Positions 4,175 to 63,031 of a stretch of DNA of 64,000 nucleotides are shown in pieces. A program made the position numbers and the translations under genes. The notes under the pieces were generated by a model that was given only the letters and a program-made list of their open reading frames with translations, did not search any database and was not told the origin of the DNA. Position 1 is the stretch's first letter. Every line of letters begins with the position of its first letter. The stretch comes from Komagataeibacter sucrofermentans DSM 15973 (GTDB lineage: Bacteria; Pseudomonadota; Alphaproteobacteria; Acetobacterales; Acetobacteraceae): positions 562,001-626,000 of the forward strand of contig NZ_CP137157.1 of NCBI RefSeq assembly GCF_040581405.1, read 5' to 3'.

Positions 4175-4801
4175 GTGATGACATGGCCCGTTCTGTACAG
4201 TTTCCGCCGCTGCCCGTATGCCATGCGGGCGCGGCTGGCGCTGCTGGCGAGTGAAACGCCCTGCACCCTGCGCGAGGTAAAGCTGGCAGCCAAGCCCGCC
4301 GCCATGCTGCGGGCCTCACCCAAGGGCACGGTACCGGTGCTGGTATTGCCCGATGGTCGCGTGATGGCCGAGAGCCTCGAGATCATGGACTGGGCGCTGG
4401 CCCGTCACGACCCGCTGCACTGGCGGCCCGGCACGCGCCATGACCTGATCGCGCGTAATGACGGGCCGTTCAAATATCATCTCGACCGCTACAAATACGC
4501 GACCCGTTACCAGTCAGATGCGCTGCATCATCGGGGCGAGGCGCTGCATATCCTGCACGACCTTGAAGCGGCGCTGCATTCAGCCCCGTTTTTGCACGGA
4601 GCGCGACCGGGCATGACCGATGCCGCCATTGCCCCATTCGTGCGCCAGTTCGTGGCGACCGATCCTGACGGGTTCGCCACCTGTGCCCTGCCGCGCGTGC
4701 GGGGGTGGCTGGAGGCTTTTCTGGCTACGCCGCTGTTTGGACGCGCCATGAAACGTGTCGCCCCTTGGCGTGAAGGCGATGCGCCGGTTCTGGTGGGTTA
4801 A
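4175..4801 (+). CDS. Glutathione S-transferase family protein
   Basis: This is a 208-residue protein with a thioredoxin-fold N-terminus. The RRCPYAMRAR motif near residue 11 resembles the Cys-Pro-Tyr active site of omega/beta-like GSTs and glutaredoxin-2. KGTVPVLVLPDG supplies the conserved cis-Pro, and MAESLEIMDW is the glutathione-binding segment. The C-terminal half is helical. The first codon is GTG, directly followed by ATG at 4178; either may be the start. It probably shares a transcript with the MFS gene, which suggests a role in detoxification or thiol redox, but no substrate can be inferred. A hairpin repeat follows the stop immediately. Confidence 0.85.
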   Translation: MMTWPVLYSFRRCPYAMRARLALLASETPCTLREVKLAAKPAAMLRASPKGTVPVLVLPDGRVMAESLEIMDWALARHDPLHWRPGTRHDLIARNDGPFKYHLDRYKYATRYQSDALHHRGEALHILHDLEAALHSAPFLHGARPGMTDAAIAPFVRQFVATDPDGFATCALPRVRGWLEAFLATPLFGRAMKRVAPWREGDAPVLVG

Positions 4802-4848
4802 GGCGCGCCGCCTTTTTGAAAAAAGGCGGCACCCAAAAACGTTTATTC
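4802..4848. repeat. Dispersed intergenic repeat, copy 1 (right half only)
   Basis: Arms GCCGCCTTTTT (4807-4817) and AAAAAGGCGGC (4820-4830), followed by ACCCAAAAAC, are the right half of the dispersed repeat whose reference copy is at 48475. It fills the space between two convergent genes and could terminate transcripts from both sides. Confidence 0.8.
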
Positions 4849-11492: not shown

Positions 11493-11560
11493 CTGAAGCT
11501 TTATCCGGCAGAACGCCGCTTTTTTGAAAAAAGGCGGCATCCAGAACCTTTCATCATTTT
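11493..11560. repeat. Dispersed intergenic repeat, copy 2
   Basis: The GCCGCTTTTTTGAAAAAAGG hairpin followed by CGGCATCCAGAACCTTT is the right half of the repeat. The left hairpin survives only as TGAAGCTTTATC. It overlaps the FTR1 stop codon and may act as that operon's terminator. Confidence 0.7.
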
Positions 11561-14112: not shown

Positions 14113-14141
14113 TCCGGGCAATTGTTGTGGAAATATGCTTT

Positions 14142-14210
14142 AAAAAATAAAAAAGCTTCAGGGAACGCCGCCTTTTTGAAAAAGGGCGGCACCCGAAAAC
14201 TTCTACCCTT
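14142..14210. repeat. Dispersed intergenic repeat, copy 3
   Basis: A truncated left hairpin (AAAAAAGCTTCAGGGAAC) is followed by the right hairpin, GCCGCCTTTTT paired with AAAAGGGCGGC, and then ACCCGAAAAC. It lies between hmp and a GST gene. Confidence 0.75.
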
Positions 14211-19626: not shown

Positions 19627-19662
19627 GTGCGTTCTCCATTACTGGTAAAGAACGGAACAAAG

Positions 19663-19730
19663 ACGTTTCTGGTAAGGATTTTTTTTAAAAGCTTCGATAG
19701 ACACTGCTTTTTTTAAAACGGCAGTGCCTA
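19663..19730. repeat. Dispersed intergenic repeat, copy 4 (diverged)
   Basis: GTTTCTGGTAAGGATTTTTT with AAAAGCTTCGATAG, then CACTGCTTTTTTT pairing with AAAACGGCAGTG, keep the two-hairpin layout with compensating changes: CACTGC pairs with GCAGTG where other copies have GCCGCC and GGCGGC. It lies between two convergent 3' ends. Confidence 0.65.
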
Positions 19731-19747
19731 TGAAACATATGTTCCCT

Positions 19748-26642: not shown

Positions 26643-26684
26643 TTGAATTGAAATAATAAAATTTCAGGTTCTGTTTTTTAAAAG

Positions 26685-26731
26685 TAAGGTTCTCTGAAGC
26701 ATTTTAAAAAAAGCTTCACCCAAAACTTTTT
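26685..26731. repeat. Dispersed intergenic repeat, copy 5 (one hairpin)
   Basis: AAGGTTCTCTGAAGCATTTT followed by AAAAAAAGCTTC and then ACCCAAAACTTTT keeps the left hairpin and outer arms but lacks the GCCGCC hairpin. It lies between convergent 3' ends. Confidence 0.55.
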
Positions 26732-26766
26732 TGTTTTTTAGGGTATTTTGCGGCCAGCGGCCCGGA

Positions 26767-33927: not shown

Positions 33928-33953
33928 CTATGTCCCGATTACAGGAAATGACA

Positions 33954-34035
33954 GGGGTTTCTGGTGAAACTTTTTTCAAAAAGCTTCAGGAGGCACCGCT
34001 TTTGTTAAAAAAAGACGGCGCCCCAAAATGCTTTA
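33954..34035. repeat. Dispersed intergenic repeat, copy 6 (full length)
   Basis: Outer arm GGGTTTCTGGTG, hairpin 1 (GAAACTTTTTTC with AAAAAGCTTC), hairpin 2 (CACCGCTTTTGTT with AAAAAAAGACGGCG) and closing CCCCAAAATGC are all present. It lies between the permease stop and its terminator. Confidence 0.75.
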
Positions 34036-34067
34036 TGTCAGTGCAGACCGAATGGCACGGTCACTTC

Positions 34068-42660: not shown

Positions 42661-42683
42661 GGTGGCAGCCTGGCAGCATCAGG

Positions 42684-42760
42684 ATATTTTTGGTGAGGCC
42701 TTTTTCAAAAAGCTTTGGAAAAACGCAGCCTTTGCGGGAAAAGACCGCGCCTGAGAACTA
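42684..42760. repeat. Dispersed intergenic repeat, copy 7
   Basis: ATTTTTGGTGAGGCCTTTTT with AAAAAGCTTTGG, then CGCAGCCTTTGCGGGAAAAG followed by ACCGCGCCTGAGAAC, keep the element's layout with a diverged second hairpin. It follows the AGE gene. Confidence 0.65.
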
Positions 42761-42792
42761 TCAATGAATTGTTCTTCAACGAGGCGCCAGCC

Positions 42793-46977: not shown

Positions 46978-47049
46978 GTGCCCGGTGTTTTGCCTGTCCC
47001 GCCGTGAAGGGCCTGCCTGCGCCGTACCGGCATGCGGGCGGTTGTGGCG

Positions 47050-47080
47050 AAAACTGTTTCAAAAAGCTTCGTAAAAACAT
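47050..47080. repeat. Dispersed intergenic repeat, copy 8 (fragment)
   Basis: GAAAACTGTTTC followed by AAAAAGCTTCGTAAAAAC is the left-hairpin portion only. Unlike most copies it is upstream of a gene. Confidence 0.45.
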
Positions 47081-47237: not shown

Positions 47238-48464
47238 ATGACACAGACAATGATCCATGACCGTGGAGGGGCTCCTGCGCCCGCGCGCCACGTTGGCAGC
47301 CCCGGCCTGATCTTCTTTATTCTCGCACTTGGTGGCTTTGCCATCGGCACGGCTGAATTCGCGGCCATGAGCCTCGTGCCCATGATCTCGGCAGGCATGC
47401 ATGTAACCGTGCCGCAGGCGGGTCACGCAATCGAGGCCTATGCCGCGGGCGTGTGCGTGGGCGCGCCGCTCATTGCCATGCTGGGCGCCAAATACAGCCG
47501 TAAATACCTGCTGATTGGCATGATGGTGCTTTATGTCATTGGTAATGGCCTGACCGCACTCGCCCCCAATTATTTGTGCCTGCTTTTGTGCCGGTTCATC
47601 AGCGGGCTGCCGCATGGGGCCTATTTTGGCACGGCTGGCATTGTCGCCTCCGGCCTCGTGCCCGAAAACCGCCGCACGCAGGCGGTGGCCCGCGTGGTGC
47701 TGGGCCTGACCATAGCCACCATTGGCGGCGTGCCCATGGCCAACGGGCTGGGCATGCTGGTGGGGTGGCGCTGGGCGTTCGTGCTGATTGCGGGGCTGGC
47801 GCTGTGCACCATGCTGCTGATCATGCGCTTCGTGCCCACTGATCCGCCACGCCCCAACGCCAGCGCCATGACCGAGATCCGCGCCCTGAAGAACCGGCAG
47901 GTGTGGCTGACGCTGGGCATTGGCGTGGTGGGTTTTGGCGGCATCTTCTGTGTCTATACCTATCTTGCTTCCATCCTGCAGGAGGTCACGCACGCGCCTG
48001 CCTACATGACGCCCGTGCTGCTGGCGGTGTTTGGCGTGGGCATGACGGTCGGCACCATGACCTGCGCATGGGCGGCTGACCACAAGATGATGCCCACCAT
48101 CGGCGGCACGCTTCTGGTCAATGCGGCGGCGCTGGCGGGCTTTCCCGGTTCGGTGCATTCCGTATGGAGCATGATGCCCATCGTGTTCCTGATTGGCTGT
48201 GGCGGGGGCCTGGGCACGGTCATCCAGTCGCGCCTGCTCAGTGTTGCGGTTGATGCGCAGGCGCTGGCGGCAGCGATGAACCAGAGCGCTTTCAACATGG
48301 CCAACGCCATTGGCCCATGGCTGGGCGGCATGGCGATCAGCGCCGGGCTGGGCTGGGAATCCGTGGGCTGGGTCGGAAGCTGCCTGGCCATGGGGGGCTT
48401 CGTGATCTGGCTGCTGACGCTGAGCGATATCCGCGCTGCTGCGCGCAGGCAGGCCGGGGGCTGA
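47238..48464 (+). CDS. MFS transporter, DHA1/AraJ-like efflux
   Basis: The 408-residue protein has about 12 membrane segments and the family start LALGGFAIGTAEFAAMSLVPMI. Loop 2-3 reads GAKYSRKYLLIGMM, followed by CRFISGLPHGAYFGTAG and the antiporter-like GLTIATIGGVPMANGLGMLVGWRWAF. It resembles AraJ and arabinose/drug exporters and is a distant paralogue of the gene at 2970. The substrate is unknown. The chosen ATG at 47238 gives a short cytoplasmic tail before helix 1; the frame is open 14 codons upstream. Confidence 0.87.
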   Translation: MTQTMIHDRGGAPAPARHVGSPGLIFFILALGGFAIGTAEFAAMSLVPMISAGMHVTVPQAGHAIEAYAAGVCVGAPLIAMLGAKYSRKYLLIGMMVLYVIGNGLTALAPNYLCLLLCRFISGLPHGAYFGTAGIVASGLVPENRRTQAVARVVLGLTIATIGGVPMANGLGMLVGWRWAFVLIAGLALCTMLLIMRFVPTDPPRPNASAMTEIRALKNRQVWLTLGIGVVGFGGIFCVYTYLASILQEVTHAPAYMTPVLLAVFGVGMTVGTMTCAWAADHKMMPTIGGTLLVNAAALAGFPGSVHSVWSMMPIVFLIGCGGGLGTVIQSRLLSVAVDAQALAAAMNQSAFNMANAIGPWLGGMAISAGLGWESVGWVGSCLAMGGFVIWLLTLSDIRAAARRQAGG

Positions 48465-48474
48465 GCGGCTATAA

Positions 48475-48551
48475 GAGTTTTTGGTGAAGGTTTTTCAAAA
48501 AGCTTCAAGGAACGCCGCCTTTTTGAAAAAAGGCGGCCCCGAAAAACTTCT
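48475..48551. repeat. Dispersed intergenic repeat, copy 9 (reference full copy)
   Basis: This is the cleanest full copy. Outer arms AGTTTTTGG (48476-48484) and CC-G-AAAAACT (48539-48548) enclose hairpin 1 (GAAGGTTTTT, 48486-48495, with AAAAAGCTTC, 48497-48506) and hairpin 2 (GCCGCCTTTTT, 48514-48524, with AAAAAGGCGGC, 48527-48537). The transcript on either strand could fold as a three-way junction. It follows the MFS stop. Confidence 0.85.
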
Positions 48552-48620
48552 GTTATTTTAAAAGACTTCGTAAATCAGGGGTATGGTTGATGCCGCGCCC
48601 CATCCTTCCTATCGTGCCGC

Positions 48621-51025: not shown

Positions 51026-51094
51026 CCCAGAACCATTTATGGAGAAAAGCGTCAAGGCACGCTGCCTGTTTGACAGGGCAGCGCCCGTTGGCCA

Positions 51095-60454: not shown

Positions 60455-61924
60455 ATGGCGCGCGCACTCATGTTTCAGGGCACCGGCTCGAGTGTTGGCA
60501 AGTCCGTGCTGGTGGCCGGGCTGTGCCGCGCCCTGACCCGCCGGGGGCTGCGCGTGCGCCCGTTCAAGCCGCAGAACATGTCCAACAACGCCGCCGTGAC
60601 CGCTGATGGCGGCGAGATCGGGCGCGCGCAGGCATTGCAGGCGCGGGCGTGCGGCGTGCCGCTTTCGGTGCATATGAACCCGGTGCTGCTCAAGCCGCAG
60701 GGCATGACCGGCTCGCAGCTTGTGGTGCGCGGGCAGATGCGCGGGCAGGTGCGCGCGCGTGACTTCCAGTCCTTCAAGCGCGGGCTGATGCCCGAGGTGC
60801 TGGGCAGCTTCCGCACCCTTGCTGAGCAGGCCGACATCGTGCTGGTGGAAGGGGCGGGTTCCGCTTCGGAGGTCAATCTACGGGCTGATGACATCGCCAA
60901 TATGGGCTTTGCCCAGGCGGCGGATATTGATGTGGTGCTGATTGGCGATATCGACCGGGGCGGCGTGATCGCGAGCCTCGTGGGCACGAAGGTGGTGGTG
61001 GCGCCGGATGACGCGCGGCGCATCCGGGGTTTTATCGTCAACCGCATGCGTGGCGACCCCACGCTGTTTGCCGCAGGCATGGACGGGATTGCCCGCATGA
61101 CCGGCTGGCAGCCCATGGGCCTCGTGCCGTTTCTCGACCGGGTGCGCGCCCTGCCTGCGGAGGACGCAGCCGACCTTGCCGCTGGTGGCAAGCTGCGTGG
61201 GAAGGGCGTGCGCATTGTCGTGCCGTGCCTGCCCATGATCGCCAATTTTGATGACCTCGACCCGCTGGCGGCGGAAGAAGGCGTGTCGCTAACCATGGTG
61301 CCACGCGGGCAGGTGCTGCCCGCATGTGACCTGATCGTCCTGCCCGGCGCCAAGGCCACTATTGCCGATCTGGCCACACTCCGTGCGGAGGGGTGGGATA
61401 TCGACATCCACGCCCATGTGCGCCGTGGTGGGCATGTGCTGGGCATATGTGGTGGCTACCAGATGCTGGGCCACAGCATTGCCGATCCCGATGGCATCGA
61501 GGGACCGCCCGCCACGGTGGACGGGCTGGGACTGCTCGATGTGACAACCGTGCTGGCGGGCCACAAGCGGCTGGAGGACGTAACCGGCAAACTGCTGCCC
61601 GAAGGCGTGCCCCTGCATGGTTATGAAATGCATATCGGCCGCACCGAAGGGCCAGATCACGCCAGCCGCCCGCTGATCGACCTTGGCGGGCGGCCTGATG
61701 GCGCGGTCAGTCCATCGGGGCGGATATGGGGAACTTACGTGCATGGGCTGCTGGCCGATGGCCGCGCGCGGGCAGCGCTGCTGGCGCGGCTTGGCGCAGG
61801 CTCGCATGCGCAGGATCATGATGCGACGGTGGATGCGGCGCTCGATGCGCTGGCCGACCATCTGGAAGCGCATCTCGATATTGACGGGCTGCTGGCCATG
61901 GCGCGGCCGGTGCAGCGTGGGTAA
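60455..61924 (+). CDS. cobQ: Cobyric acid synthase
   Basis: The 489-residue amidotransferase amidates side chains b, d, e and g of adenosylcobyrinate diamide. The ATPase half starts [20 protein letters not shown] and [12 protein letters not shown]. The glutaminase half has the nucleophile Cys in ICGGYQMLG and a downstream His in YVHGLL. The length is normal. It is the last gene of the cobU-cobO-cobQ unit, followed by a diverged dispersed repeat. Confidence 0.95.
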
Positions 61925-61935
61925 GGAAATAATAA

Positions 61936-62011
61936 AAGTTTTTGGTGAAGGTTTTTTTTAAACTTCAGAATAATGCTATGTTTTTTGGGAAAAGTACTGC
62001 CCGGAAACCTT
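61936..62011. repeat. Dispersed intergenic repeat, copy 10 (diverged)
   Basis: AAGTTTTTGGTGAAGGTTTT then AAACTTCAG, a degraded second hairpin (TGCTATGTTTTTTGGG) and CCCGGAAACCTT follow the element's order. It sits between the convergent cobQ and cobD ends. Confidence 0.65.
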
Positions 62012-62023
62012 GATTGCTTTCGG

Positions 62024-63031
62024 TCAGCGTCGCCGTAATGTCCGGCCAAGCAGAGCCATGGCTGTTACGCCCGCCAGTGTCTGGATCAGGCATGCGCGAC
62101 GGTACAATGCCAGTGCGCGGTACAGGTCAGCCGGGCGCAGGTCGGGCGTGCCATCGCCCACCCATGGCTCGGCCACGCGCACGCCGTTATAGGCGCGTGG
62201 GCCAGACAGGCGGATGCCCAGCGCCCCCGCCATGGCCGCTTCCGGCCAGCCCGCATTGGGTGAGCGGTGGGTGCGGGCATCACGCCGCAGCACGCGCAGG
62301 GAACCACGCGCATCCATGCCGGGCAGGCTCAGGGCGGCAAGGATGATCCACAGGGCGGACAGGCGCGAGGCGGGCAGGTTGACCAGATCATCAAGCCGTG
62401 CCGCCGCATAGCCAAAGGCTTCATGGCGGGGCGTGCGGTGGCCGATCATGCTGTCAGCCGTATTGACTGCCTTGTAGAACACCGCCCCCGGCAACCCGCC
62501 CAGCGCCATCCAGAACAGCGGGGCCACGATCCCGTCGGAGAAGTTTTCGGCCAGCGTCTCGGTGGCCGCGCGTAGCACGGCGGCCTCATCAAGCTGTTCG
62601 GGGTCACGGCCCACGATGTGCGAGACTGCGCGCCGGGCGGCAGGCAGGCTGACCTGCGCCTGTTGGGCCACGGCCAGCACATGGTCATGCAGCGAGCGCT
62701 GGGCCACCAGCGAACTGGCCAGCACGCCGGTCAACGGCAGGGCCAGGCTGCGCGGCAGGATGCGGCGGATGCTGCGTTCAAGGGCTATGGCGGCCAGGGT
62801 TGGCACGGCCACGATCACGGCACTCGCCACAAAGCCGTTGGCCCGGCGGCGGGCGGGGGTGCGTTCGGGCGTGTTAAGGCGACGGTCCAGCCCACTGATC
62901 AGGCGGCCAATCCAGATCACGGGGTGCCCGATCCGGCTGACAAGCGCCTGCGGGTAACCAGCCATGGCATCGGTGACCGAGGCCACGCATGCGGTGCTGA
63001 CAGGGCGAAGCAGAAAACGGGAAAGGCGCAT
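62024..63031 (-). CDS. cobD: Adenosylcobinamide-phosphate synthase
   Basis: This 335-residue membrane protein of the CbiB/CobD family attaches aminopropanol (phosphate) to adenosylcobyrate. GHPVIWIGRLISGLDRRLN, VGRDPEQLDEAAVLRAATETLAENFSDGIVAPLFWM, PGAVFYKAVNTADSMIGHRTPRHEAFGYAAARLDDLVNLPASRL and NAGWPEAAMAGALGIRLSGP are diagnostic. The chosen Met lacks a strong ribosome site; the frame is open about 39 codons further, but without family resemblance. It is convergent with cobQ and completes the late cobalamin set here. Confidence 0.92.
   Translation of the reverse strand: MRLSRFLLRPVSTACVASVTDAMAGYPQALVSRIGHPVIWIGRLISGLDRRLNTPERTPARRRANGFVASAVIVAVPTLAAIALERSIRRILPRSLALPLTGVLASSLVAQRSLHDHVLAVAQQAQVSLPAARRAVSHIVGRDPEQLDEAAVLRAATETLAENFSDGIVAPLFWMALGGLPGAVFYKAVNTADSMIGHRTPRHEAFGYAAARLDDLVNLPASRLSALWIILAALSLPGMDARGSLRVLRRDARTHRSPNAGWPEAAMAGALGIRLSGPRAYNGVRVAEPWVGDGTPDLRPADLYRALALYRRACLIQTLAGVTAMALLGRTLRRR

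Follow-up and report, generated by a model that had tools for sequence, protein, structure and literature searches.

A dispersed inverted-dimer repeat at gene ends in Acetobacteraceae as a candidate bidirectional transcription terminator

A full copy of a dispersed repeat lies in the spacer between two tandem genes, 4 bp past the stop codon of the gene that ends at position 48464 of the window, by which we mean the whole 64-kb stretch of DNA analysed here. Together with nine further places listed in an earlier, sequence-only reading, it belongs to one repeat family of about 85 bp, whose parts follow each other in the order A-tract, outer stem, two hairpins, T-tract (Table 1). The common layout that this reading had ascribed to all ten copies is true as the consensus of the family, ATAAAAGTTTTTGGTGAAGCTTTTTTCAAAAAGCTTCAAAGAACGCCGCCTTTTTGAAAAAAGGCGGCACCCAAAAACTTTTATT, obtained from 15 copies (14 pulled from the same genome by pattern, plus window copy 48475). 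The ten window copies themselves match it only partly, and in copies 19663, 33954, 42684 and 61936 much of the pairing is gone.

Copies in the window and their predicted folds

Two models were built from the same 15 copies: R1, which includes structure, and R2, which uses sequence only. The claim of ten copies stands for the nine places that R1 recovered with 32.6 to 84.5 bits (E 4e-7 to 4e-23), the match of 48475, a seed copy of R1, being there by construction; R2 alone matched the tenth place, 47050, a fragment of the left half. One mononucleotide-shuffled window gave no match at the local-alignment cut-off, compared with 17 rows at nine places in the real window. The change on both arms of hairpin 2 noted earlier for the fourth copy is present in its sequence. 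Placement behind stop codons was also borne out: nine of the ten window copies lie close behind a stop codon, 47050 being the exception, and our gene calls put four of them (4802, 19663, 26685 and 61936) between convergent genes, as had been stated. The convergent genes on either side of copy 61936 (window 60455-62986) encode CbiA/GATase_3 and CobD/CbiB domains, of cobalamin-synthesis type. Outside the first list, a GC-rich hairpin like hairpin 2 occurs at 51045-51086 (R2 19.1 bits; -22.7 kcal/mol), perhaps by chance.

Table 1. Repeat copies in the window and parts of copy 48475 (window coordinates)
Feature	Positions	Strand	Evidence and setting
Copy 48475, full	48469..48554	+	R1 84.5 bits (seed); three helices in fold
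Copy 48475, left outer arm, A-rich start	48471..48484	+	sequence; pairs with right arm in fold
Copy 48475, hairpin 1 (GAAGG T5 C A5 GCTTC)	48486..48506	+	sequence and fold
Copy 48475, hairpin 2 (GCCGCC T5 G A6 GGCGGC)	48514..48537	+	sequence and fold
Copy 48475, right outer arm, T-rich end	48539..48552	+	sequence and fold
Copy 4802, right half (hairpin 2 and right arm)	4801..4847	+	R1 39.5 bits, R2 38.8 bits; between convergent genes, begins at stop codon
Copy 11493, left half broken	11497..11555	+	R1 32.6 bits; adjoins stop codon of minus-strand gene
Copy 14142, left half decayed	14122..14207	+	R1 34.9 bits, R2 53.2 bits; past gene ending 14112
Copy 19663, hairpin-2 stem swapped (CACTGC/GCAGTG)	19657..19743	+	R1 41.8 bits; fold; convergent genes
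Copy 26685, hairpin 2 ruined	26654..26734	-	R1 50.1 bits; fold; convergent genes
Copy 33954, full length, decayed	33949..34036	+	R1 52.8 bits; 32 bp off stop codon of minus-strand gene
Copy 42684, full length, decayed	42679..42765	+	R1 43.9 bits; past gene ending 42660
Copy 47050, left-half fragment	47040..47076	+	R2 only, 15.8 bits, E 6e-4; away from stop codons
Copy 61936, decayed	61930..62015	+	R1 35.9 bits; convergent genes

Either half of the repeat consists of an arm, AAAAGTTTTTGG(G)TG, and then a hairpin with the tip TTTTTTCAAAAA, read from its own arm, and the lower stems of the two halves are unlike (AAGC versus CCGCC). Given this shared arm and hairpin-tip layout, the repeat is therefore an inverted dimer of two related halves that looks nearly identical on both strands. 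R1 scores many good copies on both strands, and the outer arms form terminal inverted repeats that pair over 12-13 positions. No Rfam family matched the window above its curated gathering cut-off; searches at a permissive threshold returned sub-threshold matches only, in four loci, three of which are sister loci where the match falls at the element itself.

RNA of either strand of a near-consensus copy is predicted to fold into an outer stem enclosing two hairpins (-40.5 and -42.1 kcal/mol; z -7.3 and -8.4), and in one such copy the outer stem contributes 12 kcal/mol. Window copy 48475 is weaker (-28.0 and -25.4 kcal/mol for its two strands, z -2.7 and -3.0, with 2 of 200 shuffles equally stable at z -2.7); among the nine window copies folded, it alone has all three helices in its minimum-energy fold. 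When 95 copies found with R2 were sorted, both halves were present in 58, the right half only in 27, the left half only in 3 and some other arrangement in 7, and 40 were full in the sense that each of the three helices was at least 70% paired. Some short copies are half of hairpin 1 fused to half of the other hairpin, and these fold as a single hairpin between the A- and T-tracts. The hairpin and the tracts outlast such remodelling; the branch does not.

Position at gene ends and the flanking tracts

A genome-wide count of copies, suggested by the sequence-only reading, came out high: the host genome, that of an acetic acid bacterium (3.44 Mb in five contigs), holds at least 150 matches at E 0.01 or better, a floor because 150 was the number of candidates scored. 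We surveyed the position of copies in 864 kb of this genome (25%), using R2 at E 1e-4 and R1 at E 1e-3, relative to gene calls from a simple codon-usage caller, which is crude and surer of stops than of starts. The 96 non-overlapping copies thus located comprise 56 between convergent genes, 38 between tandem genes and 2 between divergent genes, with none within called genes. Among spacers of at least 60 bp, a copy was present in 50 of the 83 between convergent genes, in 37 of the 264 between tandem genes and in 2 of the 112 between divergent genes; when convergent junctions of any length are counted, 54 of 112 hold a copy and 58 do not. The distance from copy to stop codon has a median of 15 bp across the 96 copies, and what remains of an occupied convergent spacer after subtraction of the copy has a median of 29.5 bp. 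Nearly all copies in tandem spacers (34 of 38) lie closer to the upstream stop than to the following start, 16 of the 38 being oriented with the genes and 22 against them.

Named relatives were sampled through 80 loci chosen by exact 30-base match, and their 126 non-overlapping copies divide into 60 convergent, 43 tandem, 3 divergent, 1 inside a gene and 19 at locus edges. Elements of the sister families described below show a weaker bias (n = 27: 4 convergent, 14 tandem, 6 divergent, 1 inside, 2 at an edge). Along contig C1, the stretch from 1.2 to 2.05 Mb, which lies outside the window, is poor in copies and holds 10 of the best 149 matches on that contig; a 200-kb sample there has 8 copies, against 57 in a 400-kb sample and 22 in a 200-kb sample from elsewhere, and dnaA is located at C1:1960316.

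The flanking tracts were analysed in 42 parsed full copies out of 51, nine being left out as their arms could not be located. About 12 A-rich bases stand on the left and about 12 T-rich bases on the right, beyond which the flanks take on genome composition. With the four conserved bases removed, T occupies 4.19 of nine positions in the right flank as against 1.83 in a control stretch (Wilcoxon P 3e-7; 37 copies higher, 3 lower), and A reaches 4.24 as against 1.98 in the left flank (Wilcoxon P 8e-7; 37 higher, 2 lower). At least six A and at least six T within the 12 flanking bases were found in 33 of the 42 copies. An A-rich stretch, a stem and a T-rich stretch make up the pattern given for bidirectional terminators in PMC1852404.

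In full copies no U-tract stands directly behind either hairpin; it is the AU-rich outer stem that adjoins the U-tract. A textbook terminator composed of hairpin 2 and a U-tract was ruled out for full copies, because ACCCAAAAAC comes after hairpin 2. The same arrangement suits a few half copies (loci L211 and L217), and in some half and fused copies a GC-rich hairpin is directly followed by a U-tract. The suggestion that T and A runs inside the stems could make the copies bidirectional terminators therefore survives in part: gene-end position and symmetry fit bidirectional terminators, but the runs inside the stems are probably not the cause, because in full copies the U-tract lies just outside the outer stem.

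A conventional scan, which looks for a single hairpin directly followed by a T-tract, passed 38 of 108 convergent gene ends with a copy versus 18 of 116 without one. At tandem gene ends the figures are 12 of 37 for those with a copy and 37 of 227 for those lacking one; of 224 shuffled ends, 7% passed. Ends that carry a copy thus pass more often, yet so simple a scan accepts no more than about a third of them; most fail it because the full form is branched.

Relatives, covariation and the fate of individual copies

The repeat is carried by all 18 other genomes of the genus that we searched (22 to at least 111 matches at E 1e-6). Outside the genus it was absent from four of the five genomes searched in the same family and from all 16 searched in other families. 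A draw of 249 genomes of the family, under strict filters and with 17 candidates scored per genome, gave matches in 32 genomes from 14 of 102 genera; one further genus carries the repeat in 9 of 38 genomes and another in 4 of 4. An exact 30-base pattern was found in at least 120 stretches of named genomes, with Komagataeibacter, Novacetimonas, Gluconacetobacter entanii, Acetobacter and Gluconobacter among the matches listed. One of these exact matches lies on a contig labelled Alistipes (L148, JAGBAX010000016.1). Six plasmid records, from Komagataeibacter or Novacetimonas, contain the repeat, and none of the phage sequences searched does. Near-consensus copies occur in Acetobacter and Gluconobacter.

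Copies of the sister families have the same outer arms and hairpin tips and other lower stems, namely GTTC/GAAC with CTCCC/GGGAG, GCTTC/GAAGC with GTTC/GAAC, or GTTC/GAAC with CTTC/GAAG. Seven genomes chosen for their earlier matches yielded 2 to 114 matches, and the elements are fewer than the matches because both strands of one element were often counted. The stem of hairpin 2 itself reads TCCGCC/GGCGGA in Gluconobacter copies and GTCACC/GGCGAC, with one mismatch, in Acetobacter garciniae. The first half of a sister-family element (39-41% of the query) matches NZ_CP115853.1:56448-56488 and NZ_CP115852.1:258701-258739, two plasmids of Pseudoroseomonas cervicalis, and the sister families may extend to Roseomonas-type bacteria.

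A check for covariation, also proposed in the sequence-only reading, produced a strong signal across genera and a modest one within the group. Across genera, in an alignment fitted to the structure, which favours the structure, 38 elements have 1131 of 1164 cells paired (97%), with double changes in 17 of 32 pairs. Counted as 76 rows, each element on both strands, the alignment is 96.7% paired versus 82.5% when shuffled and 58-71% when slid, and it contains 341 double-change cells versus 99 in shuffled alignments; one of five measures, the number of further pair types, shows no excess (46 versus 45.2 shuffled). The structure-fitted alignment was used because MAFFT, applied to all genera, leaves hairpin 1 out of register by about one base from family to family; every raw sequence shows the stems plainly.

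Within the group formed by the Komagataeibacter group, Acetobacter and Gluconobacter, we aligned 158 full copies, out of 221 non-overlapping ones, by sequence only. Pairing there is 90.9% versus 90.0% in shuffled alignments, and the 69 double changes exceed the 34 +/- 5 of 500 shuffles, none of which reached 69, while a slide of -1 gives 58. Covariation within the group is real but modest. Template switching between palindromic arms can itself produce paired changes and inversions, so that this signal is weaker evidence than the one across genera. In the genera examined, the T5/A5 runs and the hairpin tips are kept beyond what pairing needs. An excess of G-U pairs on the plus strand of the outer stem was set aside as a hint of selection on RNA, because hairpin 2 leans the opposite way and the copies are not independent.

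Window copies could be followed at orthologous sites of relatives. Relative G004 has copy 48475 in full, and G003 has it with an internal deletion; from G002, G013 and G014 it is missing, the distance between anchors being 17-32 bp there instead of 124-135 bp. Site 4802 is also occupied in G003 and G004, site 14142 has fuller copies in both, and site 42684 is occupied in G004. Site 11493 has the fused form in G004 and is empty in G003; at 61936, the copy has the opposite orientation in G003 and a short form in G004, and the site is empty in G002 and G014.

A broader comparison with G004 covered the 57 copies in the first 400 kb. The flanks of 18 found no match in the G004 stretch, and the spacers of another 4 were too different to compare. 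At 30 of the 35 comparable sites copies are in place in both genomes, and at 5 they are present in one. Five of the 30 shared sites were scored as inverted; at two of these, C1:135317 and 307596, the full length between the same arms is cleanly inverted. In the reverse comparison, G004 supplied 40 copies with flanks, and for 8 of them the spacer in the host genome is far shorter. An arm remnant is kept at two of the absent sites, 161255 in G004 and 346918 in the host genome, and both absences are therefore losses. Relative to this one genome, copies are mostly kept in place, and there they decay, collapse or invert.

Elements of the host and G004 are 84% identical (aligned positions at 32 sites, gaps and two poorly aligned sites excluded), four-fold sites of 207 genes are 83% identical, and only 28 of 89 one-sided changes in orthologous copies leave both versions paired. 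With divergence near that of four-fold sites and so few changes that keep pairing, in-place selection on the structure lacks support from the orthologous pairs. Identity among paralogues (41 full copies) is 83.9% between copies and 89.6% to the consensus. Near-neutral drift, taken together with near-consensus copies in separate genera, suggests that the copies are somehow renewed. We also considered that the repeat had inserted into the loop of an older hairpin, as complementary flanks at some sister loci might indicate, and rejected it: flanks pair no better than shuffled partners (z +1.2 to +2.0 for host copies, the wrong direction; z -1.0 for sister loci, six loci parsed).

A candidate two-way terminator and competing readings

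We propose that the repeat is a dispersed, symmetric, bidirectional transcription terminator that also caps mRNA 3' ends, and put the probability of this reading at about 0.58. Gene-end position, symmetry, flanking tracts and tolerance of shape support it; from these features of sequence we infer both termination and the blocking of exonucleases. A polymerase leaving the gene on either side would transcribe first an A-rich stretch, next a strong folded body and finally a U-rich stretch. In full copies this body would be a three-way junction, its outer stem closing beside the U-tract with the two hairpins within, and in fused and half forms it would be a single hairpin. Once the stem closed behind a polymerase standing on the U-tract, the RNA would come free, and its 3' end would keep a fold that blocks exonucleases. 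Because of the near dyad symmetry, one copy could serve both convergent genes. Tentatively, we extend this to a more specific proposal: a branched terminator whose three-way-junction RNA may close on a U-tract in both directions, at about half or more of the convergent ends sampled, with stems double-changed across Acetobacteraceae, T5/A5 runs fixed, in-place inversion and collapse to a single hairpin.

The chief rival, which we consider unlikely, is a selfish or mobile repeat that is non-autonomous (like REPINs, BIMEs or MITEs), persists only close behind stop codons, where it is harmless, and resembles a terminator as a by-product of its palindromes. It would account for the at least 150 copies, the spread over 14 of 102 genera in the family sample, the plasmid copies, the near-consensus copies in Acetobacter and Gluconobacter, and the clean absence at some relatives' sites, and its terminal inverted arms and inverted-dimer layout recall REP doublets. 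However, the RAYT domain (PF01797), for which the sequence-only reading had advised a search, was found in none of 19 genomes of the genus, whereas a control search was positive in 5 of 14 known genomes, and a REP with its RAYT was rejected on that account. No target-site duplication was obvious in the full/empty pairs inspected, in which A/T-rich edges and remnant-bearing losses blur the ends. Nor did a search of 2.2 Mb, judged by arm pairs, recognise a longer parent element that shares these ends: 16 of 20 inverted arm pairs 130-4000 bp apart are two listed copies, one involves a lone arm-like match, and the remaining three lie at loci outside the copy scan. The sharing of 30 of 35 comparable sites with G004, at least two of the absences being losses, also speaks against mobility, and mere avoidance of harm poorly accounts for placement 15 bp from the stop codon.

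REP, REPIN and BIME sequences, as portrayed in PMC2817692 and PMC3733652, are extragenic palindromes in hundreds of copies, with inverted doublets and a bias to gene ends, reported in the latter source, like that seen here. The traits of many extragenic copies (none of the 96 within called genes) and inverted half-units are found here as well; unlike REPs, the repeat comes without a RAYT domain in the 19 genomes searched and without a GTAG or CGTC tag, the motifs GTAG, GTGG and CGTC and the complements CTAC and GACG all being absent from its consensus. PMC3733652 gives CGTC repeats as missing from Acetobacteraceae. MITEs and SPRITE are likewise short repeats with terminal inverted arms, and SPRITE is named for a terminator-like sequence (PMC10969869); they are set apart by description, as here neither target duplication nor parent element was found. 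Strict membership in the REP or MITE class, to which the repeat had been likened, is thus unsupported for an element with no RAYT in the genomes searched, no tag in its consensus, no duplication seen in the pairs inspected and most comparable sites shared with a relative. A once-mobile repeat could later have been turned into the lineage's terminator, in which case both readings would hold in turn.

An mRNA 3'-end stabiliser or processing signal is improbable. Termination would then occur elsewhere, for instance through Rho, and the fold would stop exonucleases or be cut by RNase; very stable folds close behind stop codons and a position independent of orientation agree with such a role, but A- and T-tracts on both sides are uncalled for. 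A DNA-level site between converging transcription units, acting through cruciform extrusion or through binding of a nucleoid protein or a topoisomerase, is very improbable, for although T5/A5 runs and hairpin tips kept beyond pairing needs, strand-symmetric use and in-place inversion would suit it, unbranched half copies are common (27 right halves among 95), and we know of no protein that binds this repeat.

The proposed two-way terminator has partial counterparts elsewhere. Bidirectional intrinsic (Rho-independent) terminators share the A-rich/stem/T-rich order on both strands and the position at gene ends and between convergent genes (PMC1852404); the full form of the present repeat differs in being a three-way junction and in belonging to one repeated sequence family. 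The uptake-sequence terminators of Neisseria and Pasteurellaceae resemble it as dispersed inverted pairs used as terminator hairpins (PMC1852404 and PMC2267715). In contrast to a DNA uptake sequence, which has many copies inside genes, none of the 96 copies here lies within a called gene. To our knowledge, this repeat has no link to DNA uptake in these bacteria. The EFAR repeats of Enterococcus faecalis, an unrelated host, are likewise small and dispersed, and they are said to terminate transcription in both directions.

In the open-licence literature we found no description of the repeat in Acetobacteraceae. Uptake-sequence terminators, SPRITE and EFAR are already known examples of dispersed repeats with the function or the look of a terminator; new relative to the literature found are the branched architecture, the stems swapped across genera and this density on convergent junctions.

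If the repeat is a terminator, one sequence family ends many genes, and termination evolves as copies of a single part are made and remodelled, with no need to construct every site anew. Branched RNA could then replace the terminator hairpin, in a shape that single-hairpin predictors tend to overlook. Komagataeibacter and Gluconobacter are used for cellulose and for oxidations, so that strong terminators working in both directions would be of practical use there. The exchanged stems and the inversions in place also offer a handle on how palindromic repeats are renewed without a known transposase. Beside some copies (C1:109492, L223:5989 and G004 tile 177206) stands a second block, approximately ATTTCAGGG followed by a GC-rich piece and TTTCA(A/G)(A/G)CA, which may be another repeat or a longer version of this one.
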